Assembly: GCA_902805855.1 (NCBI GenBank)
Contig: CADCUJ010000019.1
Location: 1 to 47,317 of the forward strand
DNA length: 47,317 nt
DNA from: an uncultured Nocardioidaceae bacterium
GTDB lineage: Bacteria; Actinomycetota; Actinomycetes; Propionibacteriales; Nocardioidaceae
Direction: 5' to 3'
Shown: positions 25,380-36,110 of the stretch, in pieces
How the letters are laid out: every line of letters begins with the position of its first letter
Position numbering within the stretch: position 1 is the stretch's first letter
Translations under genes and position numbers: made by a program
The notes under the pieces: model-generated
What the model saw: only the letters and a program-made list of their open reading frames with translations
Databases searched by the model: none
Told to the model about the DNA's origin: nothing

Positions 25380-26873
25380 TCAGCGGTTCTGCGGGAAGCC
25401 GAGGTCGATCCCGCGGTGGCTGGGGTCGAGCCAGCGGGAGGTGACCACCTTCCCGCGGGTGAAGAAGTGCACGCCTTCGACGCCGTGCGCGTGGGTGTCG
25501 CCGAAGAGCGAGGATTTCCACCCGCCGAAGGAGTAGTAGGCCATCGGAACCGGCACCGGCACGTTGATCCCGACCATCCCCACCTCCACCTCGTTCTGGA
25601 AGCGGCGCGCCGCACCTCCGTCGTTGGTGAAGATCGCGGTTCCGTTGCCGTACCGGTTCTCGTTCACCAGCGCGACCGCGTCCTCGTAGGTGTCGACGCG
25701 CAGGACCGAGAGCACCGGTCCGAAGATCTCGTCGGTGTAGATCGACATGCCGGTCGCGACGTGGTCGAACACGCTCGGTCCGACGAAGAACCCGTCACCG
25801 TCCGCGTCCGGCTCGACCTTCCGGCCGTCCACGACGAGCTCTGCCCCGTCGGCCTCCCCCGCGTCGATGTAGCCGGTCACCCGCTCCTGGGCCTGCGCGG
25901 TCACCAGCGGACCCATGTCGGAGGAACGGCGGCCGTCGCCGACGTGCAGCTCCAGCGCGCGGTCCTTGATCTTCTGGACCAGGGCATCCGCTACCCCGCC
26001 GACGGCGACGACTGCCGAGATCGCCATGCAGCGCTCCCCGGCCGAGCCGAACCCTGCGTTGACCGCCTGGTCCGCGGCGAGGTCCAGATCGGCGTCCGGG
26101 AGCACGACCATGTGGTTCTTCGCGCCGCCGAGCGCCTGCACCCGCTTGCCGTGCCTGGTGCCGGTCTCATAGACGTGGCGTGCGACCGGGGTCGAGCCGA
26201 CGAACGAGACGGCCCTGACGTCAGGGTGGGCGAGCAGCCCGTCGACGGCCACGTGGTCCCCGTTCAAGACGTTGAACACTCCGTCCGGCAGACCGGCTCG
26301 CTGCCAGAGCTCGGCCAGCCACCGGGCGGCCGAAGGTACCTTCTCGCTCGGCTTGAGCACGACGGTGTTGCCGGCCGCGAGCGCGATCGGGAAGAACCAC
26401 ATCGGGACCATGGCAGGGAAGTTGAACGGACCGATGATCGCGACCGGGCCCAGCGGCTGGCGGACCGAGTGCACGTCCACCCCGGTCGAAGCGTTCTCGG
26501 TCGCCGACCCCTTGATCAGGTGTGGCATGCCGCAGGCGAACTCCACCACCTCCTGACCGCGACTCACCTCGCCGAGCGCGTCGGCCGTCACCTTGCCGTG
26601 CTCGGCGGTGATGATCTCGGCGAGCTCTTGCTTGCCGGCGTTGAGCAGCTCGCGGAAGGCGAAGATCACCTGGCTGCGCGCGGCCAGCGAGGTGTCCCGC
26701 CACGCAGGGAAGGCGGCCTTCGCTGCGGCAACGGCGACCTGCACATCCTCGGCCGAGGCGAGGTCGACCTGGCCGGTCACCTTGCCCGTGGCCGGATCCG
26801 AGATGTCGCCGTACCGGCCTCCCTCACCTGGACGCTCGGACCCTGAGATCCAGTGGTGAACGGTGCCTGCCAT
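25380..26873 (-). CDS. mmsA: Methylmalonate-semialdehyde dehydrogenase (CoA-acylating)
   Basis: A 497-aa aldehyde dehydrogenase that converts methylmalonate semialdehyde (and malonate semialdehyde) to propionyl-CoA (or acetyl-CoA) in valine and inositol breakdown. The NAD-binding and active-site blocks IGPFNFPAMVPMWFFP, FVGSTPVARHVYETG, ALGGAKNHMVVLPDAD and GSAGERCMAISAVV (catalytic Cys) are those of MmsA. The family's lack of the usual Glu (Asn in GAKNH) is also seen. The start ATG 26873 has GGAGGAG upstream. Other valine-pathway genes are not adjacent. Confidence 0.95.
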   Translation of the reverse strand: MAGTVHHWISGSERPGEGGRYGDISDPATGKVTGQVDLASAEDVQVAVAAAKAAFPAWRDTSLAARSQVIFAFRELLNAGKQELAEIITAEHGKVTADALGEVSRGQEVVEFACGMPHLIKGSATENASTGVDVHSVRQPLGPVAIIGPFNFPAMVPMWFFPIALAAGNTVVLKPSEKVPSAARWLAELWQRAGLPDGVFNVLNGDHVAVDGLLAHPDVRAVSFVGSTPVARHVYETGTRHGKRVQALGGAKNHMVVLPDADLDLAADQAVNAGFGSAGERCMAISAVVAVGGVADALVQKIKDRALELHVGDGRRSSDMGPLVTAQAQERVTGYIDAGEADGAELVVDGRKVEPDADGDGFFVGPSVFDHVATGMSIYTDEIFGPVLSVLRVDTYEDAVALVNENRYGNGTAIFTNDGGAARRFQNEVEVGMVGINVPVPVPMAYYSFGGWKSSLFGDTHAHGVEGVHFFTRGKVVTSRWLDPSHRGIDLGFPQNR

Positions 26874-26996
26874 AGCTCCTCCAAACCGACGCCCACTGAT
26901 TCTCGCACTCTCGACGGCCCTGCGGTGTGGGACGCTGGACCGCCCGAGCCGCCTAGGGTTGGGCAGGCCGCGTGGCGAGGGAGCAGGAGGGGCTGC

Positions 26997-27920
26997 GTGT
27001 CGTTGATCCAGACAGAGGTGCTGACCAAGCGGTTCGGGCCGGTGACTGCCGTGGACGAGCTGACGGTCGACGTGTCGCCGGGCGTGACGGGGCTGGTCGG
27101 TGCCAACGGTGCCGGGAAGTCGACGCTGCTGAAGATCCTGCTCGGGCTGGTGCCGGCAACCGAAGGTCGCGCGAGGGTCCTCGGGCTCGACGTGGCGAGC
27201 GACGGCCCGGCGATCCGGGAGCGTGTGGGCTACATGCCCGAGCACGACTGCTTACCGCCGGATGTGTCTGCCACCGAGTTCGTGGTGCACATGGCCCGGA
27301 TGTCCGGTCTGCCGACGACGGCCGCCCGAGAGCGCGCTGCTGACATCCTCCGCCATGTCGGCCTCTACGAGGAGCGCTACCGGCCCATGGGCGGGTACTC
27401 CACCGGCATGCGCCAGCGGGTGAAGCTCGCCCAGGCGCTGGTCCACGACCCGAGCCTGGTTCTCCTGGACGAGCCCACCAACGGGCTGGACCCCGCCGGC
27501 CGCGACGACATGCTCGAGCTGATCCGGCGGATCGGCACGGAGTTCGGCATCTCGGTGATCGTCACCTCGCACCTGCTCGGCGAGCTCGAGCGGGTCTGCA
27601 GCGCGATCGTGGTCATCGACGGCGGCCGCCTGCTCAGGCACTCCGCTACCGCCTCGGTCACCGCGCAGACCCCCGTGGTGACCGTGGAGGTGGATGGTGA
27701 CCATGCGGCGCTGCACGCCTGGCTCAGCGGCGCCGGGATCGCGGTGGAGCTGGACGGGAGGCTGCTGCACGTCGATGTCGGCGACGACGCCGCCTACGAC
27801 GTCGTGCGCGACGCGGTGACAGACCTCGGCCTCGGGCTGGTGCGGATGGAGCGCGAGCGGCACCGGATGATCGAGATGTTCACCGACGACCCTGCCCGCC
27901 GGGGAGGAGCGCATGTCTGA
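26997..27920 (+). CDS. ABC-2 exporter ATPase (first pair)
   Basis: A 307-aa ATPase. Walker A GANGAGKST, signature YSTGMRQRVKLAQAL, Walker B LVLLDEPTNGLDP and the switch His in VIVTSHLLGE are complete. The C-terminal roughly 80 residues are a small alpha/beta domain common in CcmA/NatA-like exporters. The start GTG 26997 has AGGAGG upstream and is preferred over an unsupported extension. It overlaps the following permease by 8 bp; the two form one ATPase-permease unit. Substrate unknown. Confidence 0.92.
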   Translation: MSLIQTEVLTKRFGPVTAVDELTVDVSPGVTGLVGANGAGKSTLLKILLGLVPATEGRARVLGLDVASDGPAIRERVGYMPEHDCLPPDVSATEFVVHMARMSGLPTTAARERAADILRHVGLYEERYRPMGGYSTGMRQRVKLAQALVHDPSLVLLDEPTNGLDPAGRDDMLELIRRIGTEFGISVIVTSHLLGELERVCSAIVVIDGGRLLRHSATASVTAQTPVVTVEVDGDHAALHAWLSGAGIAVELDGRLLHVDVGDDAAYDVVRDAVTDLGLGLVRMERERHRMIEMFTDDPARRGGAHV

Positions 27921-28821
27921 GCGCCTGCCTGAGCCTACCGCCTCGCCCGAACGCACCGGAGCCATCCACGACATCGGGTACCGCAACTACGACGGTCCAC
28001 GGCTCGGGGCGTCGTACATCCGGCGCTCGCTGTTCGTCGAGACGCTGCGTGGCGCCTACGGGCTGGGCCGCTCGGCGCGGTCGAAGATCATGCCGTTCCT
28101 GCTGCTGGGCGTGATGGTGCTGCCGGCCCTGGTCGTCGGCATCGTCGCCGGCTACTTCGGGTTCCCATCGCTGCCAATCGGCTACACCGAGTACGTCATC
28201 ACCCTCCAGGTCGCCGTCACGATCTTCTTGGGATCGCAGTCACCCGCAGTGATGTCTCGTGACCTGCGCTTTCGGGTCGCGGCCCTGTACTTCTCCCGGC
28301 CGTTGAGCCGCCAGCAGTACGTCCAGGCGAAGTACGCCGGCATGGCGGCTGCTCTCTTCCTGGTGACCGGACTCCCGATCACCCTCCTGCTCGCCGGAGC
28401 ACTCCTCGCCGAGCTTCCGCTCGGTGAGCAGCTGCCCGACTACCTGCGTGCCATGGCCGGTGCCGGCCTGCACGCGCTCGTGCTCGCCGGTGTCGGTCTC
28501 GTCGTCGCGGCGCTGACCCCACGACGAGGAGTCGGAGTGGCCGCCGTGGTCGGCGTGCTCCTGGTGCTGTCGGGGATCCAGGCCACCGTGCGGGCGATGG
28601 CCGAGGAGTTCGGTGACGCCACGTTCAGCGGCTACACCGGGCTGCTCTCGCCGTACACGCTGGTCGACGGGGTGGTCTCCGGAGTGTTCGGAGCGGACTC
28701 GTCGGTCGGGCAGCAGCCACCGGGGGTGCTGGGTGCCGTCGTGTTCTCAGCGGTCACCGTGCTGCTGGTGGCGGGCTGCTACGCCGCTCTGGTCGCCCGC
28801 TACCGGAAGGCGCTGTCGTGA
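27913..28821 (+). CDS. ABC-2 type permease (first pair)
   Basis: A 302-aa membrane protein with about six hydrophobic segments (for example PFLLLGVMVLPALVVGIVAG and VLAGVGLVVAALTP). A cytoplasmic N-terminus contains the motif DIGYRNYDGPRLG, which I associate with this group of actinobacterial ABC-2 permeases. It overlaps the previous ATPase gene by 8 bp and the next by 4 bp (GTGA), so all four genes are translationally linked. Substrate unknown. Confidence 0.88.
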   Translation: MSERLPEPTASPERTGAIHDIGYRNYDGPRLGASYIRRSLFVETLRGAYGLGRSARSKIMPFLLLGVMVLPALVVGIVAGYFGFPSLPIGYTEYVITLQVAVTIFLGSQSPAVMSRDLRFRVAALYFSRPLSRQQYVQAKYAGMAAALFLVTGLPITLLLAGALLAELPLGEQLPDYLRAMAGAGLHALVLAGVGLVVAALTPRRGVGVAAVVGVLLVLSGIQATVRAMAEEFGDATFSGYTGLLSPYTLVDGVVSGVFGADSSVGQQPPGVLGAVVFSAVTVLLVAGCYAALVARYRKALS

Positions 28822-29744
28822 GCACGGTCGAGCTGCAACAGGTCTCCCGCTGGTTCGGCAATGTGGTGGCGGTCAACGACGTGACCATGCACCTCGGCCC
28901 AGGCGTCACCGGTCTGCTGGGGCCCAACGGCGCCGGCAAGTCCACGCTCATCCACATGATGGCGGGCTTCCTGGCGCCGTCTGCGGGCAGCGCGACCCTG
29001 GACGGTCGACCGCTCTACCGCGATCAGGAGATCTACCGCGACATCGGGCTGGTGCCTGAGCGCGAGGAGATGTACGACGCGGTCAGTGGATGGAAGTTCG
29101 TCCTCGCGAACGCCAAGCTGCACAAGCTGGCCGACCCCGAAGGCGCGGCACGGCGGGCGATCGACACCGTCGAGATGGCGCAGGCTCAGGAGCGAGACAT
29201 CCGCACCTACTCGAAGGGCATGAAACAGCGGATCAAGATGGCAACCGCGATCGTCCACGAGCCCACGGTGCTGTTGCTCGACGAGCCGTTCAACGGGATG
29301 GACCCTCGCCAGCGGCTGCACCTGATGGACCTGCTGCACCGCCTCGGTGACCAGGGCAGGACGATCCTGTTCAGCTCTCACATCCTCGAGGAGGTCGAGC
29401 AGATCGCCGGCCGGATCGAGGTGATGGTCGCCGGCCGGCACGCCGCCTCCGGTGACTTCCGCGAGATTCGGCGCCTGATGACCCAGCGACCGCACCAGTA
29501 CACGATCAGCTCGAGCGACGACCGGGCGCTGGCCTCGGCGGTGATCGCCGAGCCGAGCACCTCCGGAGTGGAGCTGGTGCGCGGTCCCGCCGGCGGCAGC
29601 ACTGTCTCGGTACAGGCCACCGACTTCTCCGCCTTCGTGCACGCCCTTCCTCAGCTCGCCTCCCGGCACGGCATCAGGCTGCTGGAAGTGCGTCCGGCCG
29701 ACGAGTCGCTGGAAAGCGTCTTCTCCTACCTGGTGACCCGATGA
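28818..29744 (+). CDS. ABC-2 exporter ATPase (second pair)
   Basis: A 308-aa ATPase with Walker A GPNGAGKST, signature YSKGMKQRIKMATAI, Walker B VLLLDEPFNGMDP and switch His SSHILEEVE. It resembles the ATPase of the first pair over its whole length, including the C-terminal extension, which suggests duplication of an ATPase-permease unit. The start is GTG 28818, overlapping the previous stop. Confidence 0.92.
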   Translation: MSTVELQQVSRWFGNVVAVNDVTMHLGPGVTGLLGPNGAGKSTLIHMMAGFLAPSAGSATLDGRPLYRDQEIYRDIGLVPEREEMYDAVSGWKFVLANAKLHKLADPEGAARRAIDTVEMAQAQERDIRTYSKGMKQRIKMATAIVHEPTVLLLDEPFNGMDPRQRLHLMDLLHRLGDQGRTILFSSHILEEVEQIAGRIEVMVAGRHAASGDFREIRRLMTQRPHQYTISSSDDRALASAVIAEPSTSGVELVRGPAGGSTVSVQATDFSAFVHALPQLASRHGIRLLEVRPADESLESVFSYLVTR

Positions 29745-30493
29745 ACGCGACCGTCGCCTCCCTCACCAGCAAGAGCCTGCTCGGCCGCCGGCGCACCTTG
29801 GTCCTGCTGCTACTTCCCCTCGCGCTGCTGGCACTGTGCACGCTGGCCCGCGTCCTGGCCGGTCTGGACCCCGAGATCGCGCGCGAGCTCGACGGCGCGC
29901 TGGCGCCGGACCTGCTCGGCGCCTTCGGGATCGCCATCTTGATGCCGCTGCTCAGCCTGATCGCCGGCACCGGCTCGATCGGCCCGGAGATCGACGAGGG
30001 GTCGATCGTCTACCTGCTCGCCAAGCCGCTGAACCGGTACTCCATCGTCGTCACCAAGCTCGTGGTCGCCGTCGGGGTCGTCTTGGTGTTCGGCGTGCTT
30101 CCGATCGCCGTCGCCGGGGTGGTGCTGACCGGCGAGGTCGGCAGCGTCACGATCGGGTACGCGGTCGGTGCGCTGGCTGCCGGGATCGCGTACTCCGCGG
30201 CGTTCCTGCTCCTCGCCGTGGTGACCAGGAACGCCGTCGTCGTCGGTCTGATCTACGCCCTCATCTGGGAGTCACTGGTCGGCGGCCTGGTTCCAGGTGC
30301 GCAGACGCTGAGCGTCCAGCAGTGGTCACTGTCCGTCGTCCAGCACGTCCTGGGCGCGTCTGCTGGTCGACTCGATGTCGAGGCGGCCGTCGGCTTCGGC
30401 ACCGGCCTGGTGCTGCTCGCGTTCGTCTCCGTCACGGCGACTGTCTACGCGGGCAGGCGGCTGCAGACGCTGCGTCTCAACGACGAGGCCTGA
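29741..30493 (+). CDS. ABC-2 type permease (second pair)
   Basis: A 250-aa membrane protein with about six hydrophobic helices (LVLLLLPLALLALCTLARVL, LVVAVGVVLVFGVLPIAVAG and others) and the SGPIGPEIDEGSIVYLL-like block typical of ABC-2 permeases (here GSIGPEIDEGSIVYLLAKPL). It overlaps the second ATPase stop (ATGA) and is the last gene of the operon. It probably pairs with the ATPase before it; the two pairs could also assemble as a heteromeric exporter. Confidence 0.88.
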   Translation: MNATVASLTSKSLLGRRRTLVLLLLPLALLALCTLARVLAGLDPEIARELDGALAPDLLGAFGIAILMPLLSLIAGTGSIGPEIDEGSIVYLLAKPLNRYSIVVTKLVVAVGVVLVFGVLPIAVAGVVLTGEVGSVTIGYAVGALAAGIAYSAAFLLLAVVTRNAVVVGLIYALIWESLVGGLVPGAQTLSVQQWSLSVVQHVLGASAGRLDVEAAVGFGTGLVLLAFVSVTATVYAGRRLQTLRLNDEA

Positions 30494-30554: not shown

Positions 30555-30581
30555 GGTCACACCCGAGCCATCCCGCGCGTC
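30555..30581 (+). promoter_or_regulatory. ECF41-type promoter upstream of the sigma gene
   Basis: GGTCACA (30555-30561), a 16-bp spacer, then CGTC (30578-30581) followed by AAC. The published ECF41 signature is TGTCACA at -35 and CGTC at -10, so this is one base from the -35 consensus and exact at -10. It lies 37 bp before the sigma gene ATG, implying autoregulation. An almost identical element lies at 31459-31485. Confidence 0.75.
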
Positions 30582-30618
30582 AACGGGATGACCGAGGACG
30601 AGTAGAAGGGCAGCGGCC

Positions 30619-31455
30619 ATGGACCAGACCGAGATGTTCGAGGCTGAACGACCACGTCTCGTGGGGATCGCGAACCGGGTGCTTGGCGACCACGCTGAGG
30701 CCGAGGACGTCGTGCAGCAGGCCTGGCTTCGGCTGCACCGGACGGAGACCGAGATCGAGAGCCTCCCGGCATGGCTGACAACCGTGACCACCCGGCTGTG
30801 CCTCGACAGGCTGCGCGCCCGCACCCCCGTGCCCATGGAGGACGTCGAGCCCCAGGAGACCGTCGACGACCCGGCCGACGACGTCGCCCTCGCCGACACC
30901 GTCGGACTCGCGCTGCACGTCGTGCTCGACAGGCTTTCACCGCGCGAGCGGGTCGCTTTCGTGCTTCACGACAGCTTCGGCTTCGAGTTCCCGACGATCG
31001 CGGCGGTCCTCGACACCACGCCGGTGGCCGCCCGCAAGCTGGCCTCACGGGCACGGGCCAAGGTCGCCCAGCCCCGGCCTGAGGACCGCCTGGCGAACTG
31101 GGAGGTGGTCGACGCCTTCATGGCCGCGGCGAAGAGCGGCGACTTCGACCGGCTGCTACGACTCCTCGCCCCCGACGCCGTGGTGACCGCAGACGACGCC
31201 GCAGTCCTGGTCGGCACACCGCGGAAGATCGATGGCCGCGACGAGGTGGCGACCTTCTTCAACGGCAGCGCCCGGGCCGCGCTGCCGGTCTTCGTCGGAG
31301 ACCGGCCCGGCTCCGCCTGGTTCCACCAAGGTGCGGCCAAGGTCGTCTTCGATTTCACTGTCGACGACGGCCTCGTGCACGCCATCACGTTCCGCGCCGC
31401 GCCCGACCTGCTCTCACGAGTCGTGCGCCGTGACGGCGGTCTACCGCGTGAGTGA
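30619..31455 (+). CDS. ECF41-type sigma factor with SnoaL-like C-terminal domain
   Basis: A 278-aa RNA polymerase sigma factor. Region 2 (about 7-70) is seen in LVGIANRVLGDHAEAEDVVQ and WLTTVTTRLCLDRLRA. Region 4 (about 100-155) is seen in LDRLSPRERVAFVLHDSFG and PTIAAVLDTTPVAARKLASR. Residues about 165-278 form a SnoaL/NTF2-like extension (VVDAFMAAAKSGDFDRLLRLLAPDAVV), the hallmark of the ECF41/SigJ group, in which this domain regulates activity in place of an anti-sigma factor. The usual partner (a carboxymuconolactone decarboxylase-like or oxidoreductase gene) is absent; the neighbour is DUF1059. ECF41-type promoter elements flank the gene on both sides. Confidence 0.93.
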   Translation: MDQTEMFEAERPRLVGIANRVLGDHAEAEDVVQQAWLRLHRTETEIESLPAWLTTVTTRLCLDRLRARTPVPMEDVEPQETVDDPADDVALADTVGLALHVVLDRLSPRERVAFVLHDSFGFEFPTIAAVLDTTPVAARKLASRARAKVAQPRPEDRLANWEVVDAFMAAAKSGDFDRLLRLLAPDAVVTADDAAVLVGTPRKIDGRDEVATFFNGSARAALPVFVGDRPGSAWFHQGAAKVVFDFTVDDGLVHAITFRAAPDLLSRVVRRDGGLPRE

Positions 31456-31458
31456 CCC

Positions 31459-31485
31459 GGTCACACCCGCGGCGTACCGATCGTC
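31459..31485 (+). promoter_or_regulatory. ECF41-type promoter upstream of the DUF1059 gene
   Basis: GGTCACA (31459-31465), 16 bp, CGTC (31482-31485), then AAC. It begins 3 bp after the sigma gene stop and lies 43 bp before ATG 31529. It shares GGTCACACCCG and CGTCAAC with the element in front of the sigma gene, with identical spacing, while the interior of the spacer differs. This makes the DUF1059 gene the likely direct target of the sigma factor. Confidence 0.75.
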
Positions 31486-31528
31486 AACCCAACAGGACAC
31501 ACCCACACACCACTCAGGAGGGATGACC

Positions 31529-31774
31529 ATGACCGTGAAAACCATGACCTGCCGTGATCTCGGAGGGCCGTGCAACCTCGAGCACCACGGCGAGAGCGCC
31601 GACGACGTCATCAAGGCCCAGGACCGCCACCTCAAGGAGGCGGAGAGGGCCGGCGATGAGACCCACCAGGAGGCCCGCGACGCCATGAAGGGCCGCTGGC
31701 GCCACCCGAAGCGGTCGATGGACTGGTACCGCGACATGCAGCGGGCTTTCGCCGCCCTGCCTGAGCACCGCTGA
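31529..31774 (+). CDS. DUF1059 family small protein
   Basis: An 81-aa soluble protein. I recognise the DUF1059 pattern: MTCRDLGGPCNLEHHGESAD, then a helical stretch (DDVIKAQDRHLKEAERAGDE) and MDWYRDMQRAFAALPEH at the end. Cys in TCRDLGGPC, with the adjacent His pair, could bind a metal or react with an oxidant, but no activity is known for the family. ATG 31529 is 6 bp after AGGAGGG; ATG 31523 is too close to that site. It stands alone behind an ECF41-type promoter. Confidence 0.88.
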   Translation: MTVKTMTCRDLGGPCNLEHHGESADDVIKAQDRHLKEAERAGDETHQEARDAMKGRWRHPKRSMDWYRDMQRAFAALPEHR

Positions 31775-31881: not shown

Positions 31882-31907
31882 GGCAGGTGCAGGGTGGCAG
31901 GTGCAGG
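31882..31907. repeat. 12-bp direct repeat duplicating the tRNA-Tyr 3' end
   Basis: GGCAGGTGCAGG occurs at 31882-31893 and again at 31896-31907, where it is the acceptor strand and part of the T-arm of tRNA-Tyr. The copies are 14 bp apart. This is a partial tandem duplication of the tRNA 3' end just outside the gene. No integrase lies nearby. Confidence 0.7.
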
Positions 31908-31977
31908 ATTCGAACCTGCGTAGGCATACGCCGACGGATTTACAGTCCGCTTCCATTGGCCGCTCGGACAACCTGCC
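31895..31977 (-). tRNA. tRNA-Tyr (anticodon GTA)
   Basis: Read on the minus strand, the gene opens GGCAGGT and closes ACCTGCC, a seven-base acceptor stem, with discriminator A at 31895. The anticodon loop CTGTAAA gives anticodon GTA. A long variable arm, the D-arm with GAGCGGCCAATGG and the T-arm GCAGGTTCGAATCCTGC all fit a class II bacterial tRNA-Tyr. The gene does not encode CCA: the discriminator is followed by CCC. Confidence 0.95.
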
Positions 31978-32607: not shown

Positions 32608-34905
32608 ATGGCCATGCCCGACGCTCCCGAGCTCCCGCGTGTCGCGCAACGGCTCGCGGGCACGAAGGTCCTGATCACCGGAGTGACCGGCTTCGTGGGC
32701 GAGGCACTGCTGCACCTGCTGCTCACTCGGGTCCCGGACGTGACCGTGGCGGTGCTGGTCCGGCCGAAGGAGTCGGTGTCCGGAGCGGCGAGGATCCAGC
32801 AGCTGCTCAGCAAGCCGATCTTCGCCGAGGTCGCCGAGTCCGCGGGCGGCGTCGAGACACTGACTCAGCGGATCGACGTCGTCGAGGGCGACCTGCACCA
32901 GGTCCCCGCGCTGCCCTCCGACCTCGACGCGGTGGTGCACTGCGCCGGCGACGTGTCCTTCGACCCTCCGGTCGATGAGGGGTTCCGGTCCAACGTGGTC
33001 GGCACCCGCGACCTGCTCGCCCGGGTCGCCGAGGTCGGCGCACACGTGCACTACGTGCACATCTCGACGGCGTACGTCGCCGGCCGTCGCCGCGGCACCG
33101 CCCTCGAGCAACCGGTCGACCACAGCGTCGACGTCGAGGCAGAGCTGTCCTGGGGGCTGGCGCAGCGCCGGGACGTCGAGCACCGTTCCCGAAGCGCCGA
33201 CCTGCTGGACCGCCTGCGCACGAAGGCCGAGCGGACGCATGGAAGAGCCGGCCTGCTCAGCGCGGCTGCCGCCGCCGAGGAGGAGCGCCGCAGCTGGGTC
33301 AAGGACGAGCTGGTCCGGCTCGGCACGGAGCGCGCGCGCAGTCTGGGGTGGACCGACTGCTACACGTTCACCAAGGCGCTCGGGGAGAGAGTGGTCGAGT
33401 CCTACGCCGCTGGTGCGCCGGTGTCGATCGTGCGGCCGAGCATCATCGAGTCTGCCCTCGTGACGCCGTACCCCGGCTGGATCGAGGGCTTCAAGATGGC
33501 CGAGCCGATCATCTTGGCCTACGGGCGCGGTGAGCTCCCGGAGTTTCCGGCATCACCGGACTCCACCGTCGACATCGTGCCGGTCGACCACGTCGTGGCA
33601 GCGATCGTCGCCGTGCTCGCCAACCCCCCGGAGCCGGGCAACCCGGTGTGGTACCACGTGTCCTCCAGCGCGCGAAACCCACTGAGCTTCCGCCGGCTCT
33701 ACGCCACCGTGCGCGGCTACTTCGACCAGCACCCCTTCGAGGTCGGTGGCCGCGGCGCGGCGCGGCTTCCCGAGTGGCGGTTCCCCGGCGCACAGGCCGT
33801 CGAGAGGCTCCTGGTGACCAGCGAGCGGGCCCACCGCGCTGCCGACTACCTGGTCACCCACGCGCCCCGCGCGGACCGCACGAGAGACATCGCGCGCCGG
33901 CTCGACCGCCAGCAGCGGCGGCTGGAGTTCCTGCGTCGCTACCTGGGCCTCTACCAGGAGTACGCGCAGGCCGAGCTCCGCTTCTCCGACCAGAACACCC
34001 GCGCTCTCTTCGAGCGGCTCGATCCCGATGATCGGGCAACCTTCGCCTTCGACACCGCGGTGACCGACTGGGACCACTACCTGGCGGAGGTGCACTGCCC
34101 AGCGGTCACCGAGCCGGTGCGTCAGTTCGACGAGGCGCGCCGTGCTCGCAAGCGCCCCAGCAGCGGACACCTCGACGCGGTCCCGTCCGGCGGCTCGGGA
34201 CAGGTCGCCGCGTTCTTCGACATGGACGGGACGATGCTTTCGTCGAACGTGATCGAGAGCTACCTGTGGCTGCGTCTTCAGGAGCTCGACGGAGGCGACC
34301 GGGTCGCCGAGATCGGCCGGATGGCCGCTCGCCTCCCCGGCCTGGTCCGCGCGGAGCGGCGGGAGCGCAGCGGCTTCCTGAGGGCGGTCTACCGCGAGTA
34401 CGAAGGGTCGCGGCTGGACGACCTGGACGCGATCGCGGACGAGATGCTCACCTCCCACGTCCTCTCCAAGCTGGCGCCGGAAGCCGTTCGCCGGGTCCGC
34501 GAGCACCGTGCAGCCGGCCATCGAACGGTGCTGATCACCGGCGCGATCCGCCCGCTGACCCGGCCTTTGCTGCCGCTGTTCGACCACGTCGAGGCAGCCG
34601 ACCTCGCCGTCGACGACGACGGGATCTGCACCGGGTTCCTGGCCGCCGCCCCACTGGTGGGCGAGTCTCGCGCGTCCTGGATGCGGCACTGGGCCGCGGA
34701 GAACGGCGTCGACCTGGCGGGGTCCTCCGGCTACGCCGACTCACACTCCGACCTGCCGCTGCTCCAGGCGGTGGGCAAGCCGGTCGCCGTGCGCCCCGAC
34801 GTCGCGCTCTACCGACACGCGACGAAGAACCGCTGGCCGATCCTCGACTGGAACAGCCCGCCCACGACGTCGCGGACGCTGAACCCGGCAGGGGCGATGC
34901 GGTGA
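32608..34905 (+). CDS. Fatty acyl-CoA reductase fused to HAD-IB phosphatase
   Basis: A 765-aa two-domain enzyme. The N-terminal part (about 15-370) is an extended SDR/NAD-binding 4 domain: TGVTGFVG (residues 24-31) for NADP(H), HISTAYVAG, the catalytic Tyr252-x3-Lys256 (YTFTKALGE) and IVRPSIIES, as in fatty acyl-CoA reductases. A FAR-C-like helical region follows (about 370-510). The C-terminal part (about 533-750) is a SerB-like HAD hydrolase: FFDMDGTML with Asp538 and Asp540, VLITGAIRPL, and YADSHSDLPLL. The pairing suggests reduction of an acyl-CoA to an alcohol or aldehyde plus hydrolysis of a phosphate ester in the same pathway. ATG 32614 is an equally possible start. It overlaps the next gene. 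Confidence 0.9.
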   Translation: MAMPDAPELPRVAQRLAGTKVLITGVTGFVGEALLHLLLTRVPDVTVAVLVRPKESVSGAARIQQLLSKPIFAEVAESAGGVETLTQRIDVVEGDLHQVPALPSDLDAVVHCAGDVSFDPPVDEGFRSNVVGTRDLLARVAEVGAHVHYVHISTAYVAGRRRGTALEQPVDHSVDVEAELSWGLAQRRDVEHRSRSADLLDRLRTKAERTHGRAGLLSAAAAAEEERRSWVKDELVRLGTERARSLGWTDCYTFTKALGERVVESYAAGAPVSIVRPSIIESALVTPYPGWIEGFKMAEPIILAYGRGELPEFPASPDSTVDIVPVDHVVAAIVAVLANPPEPGNPVWYHVSSSARNPLSFRRLYATVRGYFDQHPFEVGGRGAARLPEWRFPGAQAVERLLVTSERAHRAADYLVTHAPRADRTRDIARRLDRQQRRLEFLRRYLGLYQEYAQAELRFSDQNTRALFERLDPDDRATFAFDTAVTDWDHYLAEVHCPAVTEPVRQFDEARRARKRPSSGHLDAVPSGGSGQVAAFFDMDGTMLSSNVIESYLWLRLQELDGGDRVAEIGRMAARLPGLVRAERRERSGFLRAVYREYEGSRLDDLDAIADEMLTSHVLSKLAPEAVRRVREHRAAGHRTVLITGAIRPLTRPLLPLFDHVEAADLAVDDDGICTGFLAAAPLVGESRASWMRHWAAENGVDLAGSSGYADSHSDLPLLQAVGKPVAVRPDVALYRHATKNRWPILDWNSPPTTSRTLNPAGAMR

Positions 34906-36110
34906 TGTTGGCCCTGGAGATGTTCCGCTCGCTGCCGCGACACGTCGCAGGCAAGGCAGTCGGTGGCCGGATGCCCGGTGTCCTCTCGGGGTACGCCGCT
35001 CCCCTGCGTCTGGTGACCCTGGATCAGCCGCAGGTGAGCAGGGCCGGCTGGGCTCGCCTGCGCACCCGCCTCTCGGGCATCTGCGGATCCGACCTCGGCG
35101 CGCTCTCGGGTCGGTCCAGCCTGTACTTCTCCGGCCTGGTCTCCATGCCGTTGGTCCCCGGTCACGAGATCGTCGCCGAGCTCCTCGACGACTGCGACGA
35201 CCTGGCAGCGGGCACCCGCGTGGTCGTCGACCCGATCCTGCGCTGCCAGGCTCGCGGCGTCACGCCGTGCGCTTCCTGCGACGCTGGGGCCACCAACCGC
35301 TGTGACCGGGTGACCGTAGGGCATCTGGCTCCCGGGTTGCAGACCGGCTTCTGCGCCGACACCGGCGGCGGCTGGGGCGAGGTGCTCTCCGCCCACCGCA
35401 GCCAGCTGCACGAGGTCCCCGACGACTTCACCGACGAGCAGGCGATCCTGGTGGAGCCGCTGGCCTGTGCGGTGCACACCGCGCTACGCGCCGAGGTGCC
35501 GGAGAACGCCCGGGTGCTGGTCAGCGGTGCCGGCTCCGTCGGGCTGCTCACCACCTTGGCACTGCGCCACCTCACCCGGGCCGGTGAGATCACCGTGGTC
35601 GCCAAGCACGCGCATCAGCGCGACCTGGCCCGTGCTTTCGGTGCCACCGACGTGCTCGGTCCCGAACAGGTGCTGCGCGGGGTCAGACGGGCGACCGGTG
35701 CGTTCCAGGTCGAGCCGGAGTACAGCCGCCCGTTCCTGCTCGGCGGCGTGGACGTCGCCGTGGACGCCGTCGGCAGCAAGCAGTCCCTGGAGACCGCGAT
35801 GCACGCCACCCGTGCGGGTGGGCGAGTCGTGCTCTCCGGGATGCCGGCTCCGGCTGACCTGTCTGCGGCGTGGTTCCGGGAGCTGGAGCTGGTCGGCTCC
35901 TACGGCTCTGCGGAACGGGAGCCGCGGGCAGGTGGTCGTCCCGCGTTCGACATCGCCTTGGAGATGGTCGCCGGGGGAGCGATGAACCAGGTTGCGGGCT
36001 CGGTGGCGAGCTACCCGCTGCACCGGTGGAGGGAGGCGCTCGACCACGCCCACTCGGCCGGCCGACTGGCCACGGTCAAGGTGGCGTTCGACCCCAGGAG
36101 GACACAGTGA
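34905..36110 (+). CDS. Zinc-dependent alcohol dehydrogenase (MDR family)
   Basis: A 401-aa medium-chain dehydrogenase. SGICGSDLG (Cys60) and VPGHEIVAE give catalytic zinc ligands, and the lobe CASCDAGATNRCDR has structural-zinc-type Cys. The cofactor motif is VSGAGSVGLLTTLAL. It presumably oxidises or reduces an alcohol/aldehyde made by the upstream acyl-CoA reductase. The start ATG 34905 shares one base with the preceding stop (TGATG); GTG 34902 is an alternative. Its own stop overlaps a GTG that opens a duplicated mini-ORF. Confidence 0.92.
   Translation: MLALEMFRSLPRHVAGKAVGGRMPGVLSGYAAPLRLVTLDQPQVSRAGWARLRTRLSGICGSDLGALSGRSSLYFSGLVSMPLVPGHEIVAELLDDCDDLAAGTRVVVDPILRCQARGVTPCASCDAGATNRCDRVTVGHLAPGLQTGFCADTGGGWGEVLSAHRSQLHEVPDDFTDEQAILVEPLACAVHTALRAEVPENARVLVSGAGSVGLLTTLALRHLTRAGEITVVAKHAHQRDLARAFGATDVLGPEQVLRGVRRATGAFQVEPEYSRPFLLGGVDVAVDAVGSKQSLETAMHATRAGGRVVLSGMPAPADLSAAWFRELELVGSYGSAEREPRAGGRPAFDIALEMVAGGAMNQVAGSVASYPLHRWREALDHAHSAGRLATVKVAFDPRRTQ

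Follow-up and report, generated by a model that had tools for sequence, protein, structure and literature searches.

An ECF41-like sigma factor and a DUF1059 gene behind the same promoter element: a probable two-gene regulon in Nocardioidaceae and other actinobacteria

Introduction

Which genes are turned on by a sigma factor that carries its own putative regulatory domain, and is the orphan-family gene directly behind it among them? The question is raised by positions 30,555 to 31,774 of contig CADCUJ010000019.1 (assembly GCA_902805855.1) of an uncultured Nocardioidaceae bacterium, where an extracytoplasmic function (ECF) sigma factor gene is followed by a DUF1059-related gene and the same promoter-like element, GGTCACA-N16-CGTC, stands in front of each. 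The window analysed is the whole stretch of 47,317 nucleotides of this contig. An earlier note on the window had read the pair as a self-contained ECF41 regulon with the DUF1059 gene as predicted direct target. Here, comparison with 149 genomes of the family and with loci from GTDB indicates that the two genes very probably form a dedicated regulon centered on one ECF41-like sigma factor, which would regulate both itself and the DUF1059 gene through the same element.

The following features, all on the plus strand, make up the locus:

30555..30581, plus strand: putative promoter element of the sigma factor gene (-35 GGTCACA, 16-base spacer, -10 CGTC), an exact match; autoregulation predicted
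30619..31455, plus strand: ECF41-like/SigJ-like sigma factor of 278 residues with sigma2, sigma4 and a C-terminal SnoaL-type extension (from Pfam, NCBIfam, PDB and a structure model)
31459..31485, plus strand: GGTCACA-N16-CGTC as putative promoter element in front of the DUF1059 gene, an exact match that begins 3 bases past the sigma stop codon
31516..31522, plus strand: AGGAGGG, probable ribosome-binding site of the DUF1059 gene, read from the sequence, 6 bases upstream of ATG 31529
31529..31774, plus strand: DUF1059-related gene, 81 residues from ATG 31529 or 79 from the in-frame GTG 31535

Results

The same element precedes both genes

The two elements described in the earlier note were found as claimed: GGTCACA-N16-CGTCAAC stands without any mismatch at 30555-30584 and at 31459-31488, both on the plus strand. 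Not one exact copy of the motif arose when the window was shuffled 100 times with its dinucleotides preserved. The absence of a third copy from the window likewise holds for the 16-base spacer; one variant, GGTCACA-N17-CGTC, lies on the minus strand at 35280-35307, inside the open frame 34266-36110. Across the 2.64-Mb genome (113 contigs, 97.9% complete), GGTCACA-N16-CGTCA is confined to the sites at 30555 and 31459. The looser pattern KGTCACA-N16-CGTC adds two sites, both within long open frames on the opposite strand; a larger regulon was sought in this genome and not found. The end of CGTC is separated by 37 bases from the sigma ATG (30619) and, in the second element, by 43 bases from ATG 31529, the best-placed DUF1059 start.

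In the available text of PMC3426412, the experimentally mapped ECF41 core promoter is given as TGTCACA-N16-CGTC, with a spacer of N16(+/-1), before the sigma and/or the target gene. The match to this signature proposed in the earlier note stands for GTCACA, the 16-base spacer and CGTC, and fails at the first base, which is G rather than T.

The element is conserved together with the gene pair

Among the 149 family genomes, a sigma ortholog was found in 47 at 63-100% identity (the next best match reached 49%, and the others were lower), and the DUF1059 subfamily was found in 59. Both genes are present in 46 of the 47 sigma-bearing genomes; in the remaining one (G013, locus L252), DUF1059 is missing and no motif precedes the sigma gene. 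Conversely, 13 of the 102 genomes without a sigma ortholog hold DUF1059, and two of these (G022 and G042) show a terminal piece of a sigma gene where the contig stops. The DUF1059 gene follows the sigma gene within 300 bases or less in 38 of the 46 pair genomes and farther away in 3, with divergent (3) and convergent (2) arrangements in the others. None of the 46 is without the motif upstream of one gene or the other: it precedes DUF1059 in 39, the sigma gene in 35 and both genes in 28. In the seven cases where DUF1059 has no such element itself, it follows at 24-85 bases a sigma gene that has one, and can be served by read-through.

Beyond the family, a GTDB search with the DUF1059 alignment alone gave 296 loci, of which the best 80 were analysed; the motif was called within 130 bases upstream of either gene. 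A full sigma gene was present in the fetched flank of 66 loci, within 200 bases in 63 of them, and the motif was found upstream of either gene in 64 of these 66 (DUF1059 in 50, sigma in 51, both in 37). As controls, the reverse complement of the same stretches gave 0 matches in 146, and other 130-base windows of the same loci gave 5 in 5344. The spacer measured exactly 16 bases in 118 of 121 motif sites. Over these 118 sites, the first -35 base was G in 92, C in 15, T in 10 and A in 1, and an A directly followed CGTC in 96. The median distance from motif to start codon was 36 bases. The earlier note had named a scan of related genomes as a check that could refute it; the element was kept both in the family and in the wider set. 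The 21 of the 66 loci that were placed in the sigma tree include eight named families (Nocardioidaceae, Gordoniaceae, Intrasporangiaceae, Cellulomonadaceae, Pseudonocardiaceae, Micrococcaceae, Geodermatophilaceae and Microbacteriaceae).

When 30 whole genomes were searched, 36 of the 47 strict motif matches sat at the DUF1059 locus. Many of the off-pair sites inspected (the 11 strict ones and 28 more) lie within long open frames, and clustering of the fetched flanks of 113 loci, with frames overlapping sigma or DUF1059 excluded, revealed no third gene beside the pair that recurs across genera.

The element also marks DUF1059 genes distant from the sigma gene

Fourteen of the 80 GTDB loci lacked a full sigma gene nearby. 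In two (L122 and L130) the contig ends inside the sigma gene and in a third (L152) the sigma gene is broken off, leaving 11. Three of these have an orthologous sigma gene elsewhere in the genome, and the motif lies upstream of DUF1059 in all three: in Enemella dayhoffiae the sigma gene (68% identity) is on another contig, in Flexivirga endophytica (63%) it lies about 700 kb away, and in Nocardioides solisilvae (77%) about 5 kb away. The proposal that DUF1059 is a direct target gained strength from these separated pairs. Farther out, the DUF1059 profile was found in 13 of 396 genomes of the phylum; 9 of these lack an orthologous sigma, and the motif was present at none of the 9, which are distant relatives.

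The sigma factor is related to, but distinct from, canonical ECF41

Judged by its sequence, the window sigma factor is ECF41-like and not a canonical ECF41 protein. It has the architecture by which ECF41 is recognized, namely sigma2 and sigma4 followed by a C-terminal SnoaL-type extension of about 100 residues: in Pfam, Sigma70_r2 and Sigma70_r4_2 scored above the cut-off and SnoaL_2 slightly below it (26.7 versus 27 bits), and in the structure model (predicted local distance difference test [pLDDT] 77) the C-terminal part forms an alpha/beta domain. The nearest solved structure is that of Mycobacterium tuberculosis SigJ (5xe7), the top PDB match both by sequence and by fold search of the model, whereas the score against the NCBIfam SigJ model (PRK09636), 210.3 bits, stays below the curated cut-off of 271. 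Two further models, which we take to be ECF56-like, scored 90.5 and 74.7 bits. We know of no DUF1059 partner of the M. tuberculosis protein.

The WLPEP linker motif, described as highly conserved in ECF41 in the available text of Wecke et al. 2012 (PMC3426412), is absent from the window sigma and from its aligned orthologs. A linker search across 23 loci found the full motif only in L007, with FLPEP in L215 and the similar KLPEP in L210. At the distal NPDKL position of the extension, the window sigma reads APDLL and the canonical paralog L007 reads NPHKL. In a tree of 39 sigma factors, a single branch (Shimodaira-Hasegawa-like approximate likelihood ratio 100) separates the 25 DUF1059-linked ones from the rest, the root being unsure because the two WLPEP-bearing sequences do not form one outgroup. 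The plain ECF41 label of the earlier note was too definite, since the linker motif is missing and the SigJ score falls short. L007 itself is the second sigma factor of the window's genome (G000:C2 40978-41769), a WLPEP-bearing ECF41 protein 38% identical to the window sigma; its gene overlaps a carboxymuconolactone decarboxylase family gene by its start codon, behind TGTCACA-N16-TGTC, in a textbook ECF41 layout.

The locus shares with ECF41 systems the sigma2-sigma4 core with its fused SnoaL-type extension, GTCACA-N16-CGTC before the sigma gene and/or its neighbor, a very small regulon and the lack of an adjacent recognized anti-sigma gene. It differs in that WLPEP is missing, in that the -35 element of the clade mostly starts with G where ECF41 has T, and in that the frequent, though not universal, carboxymuconolactone decarboxylase, oxidoreductase or epimerase neighbor is not found in the window, where the sigma gene is accompanied by an ABC-2 permease gene, the DUF1059 gene and a YajQ gene. 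The available text of PMC3426412 lists only decarboxylase, oxidoreductase or epimerase genes as ECF41 targets and reports that no phenotype was found; in the same text, partial truncation of the extension activates the sigma factor and its complete removal inactivates it. Among other SnoaL-bearing sigma factors, the ECF56 pair SigG1-RsfG of Streptomyces tsukubaensis (7qh5) is similar in combining a SnoaL_2-bearing sigma factor, here the third-ranked fold match, with a co-transcribed neighbor; it differs in that RsfG, according to the available text of PMC7730460, is a tested anti-sigma factor of about 17 kDa. Further SnoaL-bearing groups are ECF205, ECF294 and ECF295, as listed in the accessible part of PMC8999054. 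Within open-licence papers, we found no pairing of ECF41 with DUF1059, no report on a sigma factor with glyoxalase and SnoaL or on a GGTCACA element, and no mention of PF06348; in the accessible portions of these papers, DUF1059 appears only in a gene table and in a hydrogenase gene cluster.

The DUF1059 product is predicted to be a small soluble protein

The predicted DUF1059 product is a small soluble alpha/beta protein, modeled with a pLDDT of 91 as two strands and three helices. Most relatives align to GTG 31535 as the start. Its match to Pfam DUF1059 (PF06348) is marginal, at 22.8 bits versus a cut-off of 21.1, and covers only positions 2-36 of the 56 in the model; the last 20 positions are unmatched. 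The N-terminal half with its C-x6-C pattern is what the window protein shares with the family, whereas its C-terminal half (H44 ... WRHPK ... WY ... LPED) lies outside the model. Among the relatives, L198 scored under the cut-off and L205 and L206 gave no match, so that counts relying on Pfam alone, whose model covers only the first half and misses relatives, understate this actinobacterial subfamily. In the alignment of 81 sequences (the window protein and 80 relatives), C6, C13, H32, H44, W64 and Y65 are among the invariant residues, and the two invariant cysteines and two invariant histidines possibly point to metal or thiol chemistry. Mean column identity was 78% for DUF1059 versus 58% for the sigma factor, and the DUF1059 tree was poorly resolved. 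Searches of PDB sequences returned only matches to designed proteins at E>=0.24, a plasmid search found no DUF1059 relatives at E<=1e-3, and the terminator-like hairpin 3' of the gene was no better than in shuffles (z -0.40).

Glyoxalase-fold genes are linked to the system in two ways

In some genomes, genes of the vicinal oxygen chelate (VOC) family (Glyoxalase/bleomycin resistance, PF00903) appear as accessory members of the putative regulon. They follow 2 of the 11 strict off-pair motif sites (L221 and L231): one in Flexivirga, beside the sigma gene and directed away from it, and one in Nocardioides sp. Root122, the two VOC genes being related. A third site with a VOC gene, in G066, is among the 28 others. 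Next to the genes of four sister sigma factors of Intrasporangiaceae (49-52% identity), a divergently oriented VOC gene likewise carries the motif. In this sister clade (L214, L216, L217 and L219), paired divergent motifs about 61 bases apart serve the sigma and VOC genes, and in L214 a PNPOx-family gene comes next after this arrangement.

A profile of the VOC subfamily gave 9 strong matches in 62 genomes, all 9 with the motif, and 2 weak matches in genomes without a sigma ortholog, neither with the motif. Four motif-bearing loci had served to build the profile, and these seeds make up 4 of the 9 strong matches; of the non-seed matches (G550, G554, G119, G066 and G116), the motif was already known for G550, G554 and G066, leaving only G119 and G116 wholly new. 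The subfamily occurs in 5 of 46 genomes with an orthologous sigma and was neither found in the window's genome at E<=1e-15 nor adjacent to the pair in the window. Self-containment, as claimed in the earlier note, hence describes this genome, whereas elsewhere a VOC gene can join behind the same motif.

The second link comes from sigma-less genomes: at six loci (L237, L238, L240, L244, L047 and L198), the DUF1059 gene adjoins a VOC gene distinct from those above, which lies directly upstream in four of them (L237, L238, L240 and L047). An AraC-type regulator gene lies near DUF1059 in L237, and similar frames are found in L198 and L244. Since DUF1059 is connected with VOC genes in these two independent ways, its product may bind or detoxify a small reactive or toxic compound.

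Discussion

Proposed regulon and alternative explanations

The sequences themselves show two elements whose spacing and orientation are fixed, which are conserved along with the gene pair and which also occur at DUF1059 genes distant from the sigma gene. In the mechanism that we propose, the sigma factor carries its own regulatory SnoaL-type domain, and, by analogy with canonical ECF41 work, a signal would relieve this domain. The RNA polymerase holoenzyme, with the sigma factor recognizing the element, would then start from GGTCACA-N16-CGTC. The first copy would drive the sigma gene itself, creating a positive feedback, and the second, placed just past the sigma stop codon, would drive the DUF1059 gene, whose product would be the working output rather than a regulator.

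Several observations weigh against this proposal. The motif as defined is absent from two loci with a sigma gene nearby (L119 and L164). Six of the 11 GTDB loci without a nearby sigma gene have only a sigma factor of 46-52% identity in the genome, and five of them nonetheless carry the motif (with sigma factors of 49-52%; the motif starts with T in L159, L161 and L188), while L148 does not. L114, a metagenome-assembled genome, has the motif and no sigma at E<=1e-40, and in L127 (Arthrobacter mangrovi) a close DUF1059 (81% identity) is accompanied by no sigma gene and no motif. Of 12 DUF1059 loci in sigma-less family genomes, a set that includes the second DUF1059 copy of G022, three carry a T-first motif, eight carry none and one meets a contig end. 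The 11 strict off-pair matches in 30 genomes exceed the single match of the reversed pattern, an excess that leaves room for further targets. Moreover, the DUF1059 model matched no PDB fold, and the family and GTDB counts are not independent events because some genomes occur in both samples and Nocardioidaceae are heavily represented. Taken together with the loci where the sigma gene lies elsewhere, the sigma-less loci suggest that the motif tracks the sigma clade and that the T-first forms mark its fringe, where a less closely related sigma factor may be at work.

The alternative that deserves most weight places DUF1059 on the regulatory side, as a soluble anti-sigma factor or co-sensor that is induced by the sigma factor, binds it and closes a negative feedback. 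The invariant Cys/His set resembles that of zinc-binding anti-sigma factors, and DUF1059 is an adjacent, co-regulated gene present in nearly every sigma-bearing family genome (46 of 47). A precedent exists in SigG1, the ECF56 SnoaL sigma factor whose co-transcribed neighbor RsfG is its anti-sigma factor (PMC7730460, from the available text). Nevertheless, DUF1059 genes of the same clade occur in genomes without a sigma ortholog, beside VOC or AraC-type genes, as well as away from the sigma gene; the protein is more conserved than the sigma factor, which is not expected of a protein fitted to one sigma; and the wider Pfam family extends to archaea. Because DUF1059 exists without the sigma factor, we regard an anti-sigma role as unlikely, and less likely than that of a regulon output.

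The repeated element might also be an operator for another regulator, a repressor or activator common to both genes, which would look alike in a sequence scan, though the element contains no palindrome. This appears highly improbable, as the element equals the mapped ECF41 promoter except at its first base (in the available text of PMC3426412), always faces its gene, keeps a nearly invariant spacer and a short distance to the start codon, and is absent at the nine distant DUF1059 relatives in genomes without a sigma ortholog. Chance similarity of two intergenic stretches in a GC-rich genome is a negligible prospect: short -35/-10 patterns are indeed cheap, GTCACA-N16-CGTC having at least one match in each of the 149 family genomes, but a one-genome coincidence was rejected by the 0 of 100 shuffles with an exact match and by retention of the motif at 46 of 46 family and 64 of 66 GTDB loci. 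A dedicated regulon of the ECF41-like sigma factor therefore remains our preferred interpretation.

Surroundings of the pair

Directly upstream of the sigma gene, 26853-30493 holds four consecutive genes alternating between ABC ATPase and ABC-2-type permease, with ends that overlap or nearly do so. A tRNA-Tyr gene (gta; 31893-31977, minus strand) separates the DUF1059 gene from the YajQ-family gene, and a single open frame at 32608-34905 fuses NAD-binding (male-sterility/fatty acyl reductase type) and HAD hydrolase domains.

Implications

The comparisons suggest that many soil actinobacteria appear to share a small switch in which a sigma factor turns on itself and DUF1059 through the same promoter. 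We infer that DUF1059 is a detoxification or stress effector that works with VOC proteins. A further-reaching and rather doubtful extension is that the pair belongs to an unrecognized actinobacterial stress module, based on a WLPEP-less ECF41-like clade whose -35 G may insulate it from a canonical ECF41 in the same cell, and in which one DUF1059 protein would act with VOC proteins on a small molecule. The SnoaL domain of the sigma factor would bind the same molecule, or its product, as ligand, and the output protein would therefore clear the signal.

For DUF1059, until now an orphan family, these findings would supply a named regulator, a defined promoter and, in the VOC proteins, candidate partners. 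For the ECF41-like sigma factors, they point to a related clade with a dedicated and widely conserved target that differs from the known ECF41 targets. The change from T to G, beside a T-first, WLPEP-bearing ECF41 in the same genome, may offer a naturally occurring example of paralogs insulated from each other at the promoter, and a system of only two genes would make both the signal of a SnoaL-fused sigma factor and the role of its target accessible to experiment.
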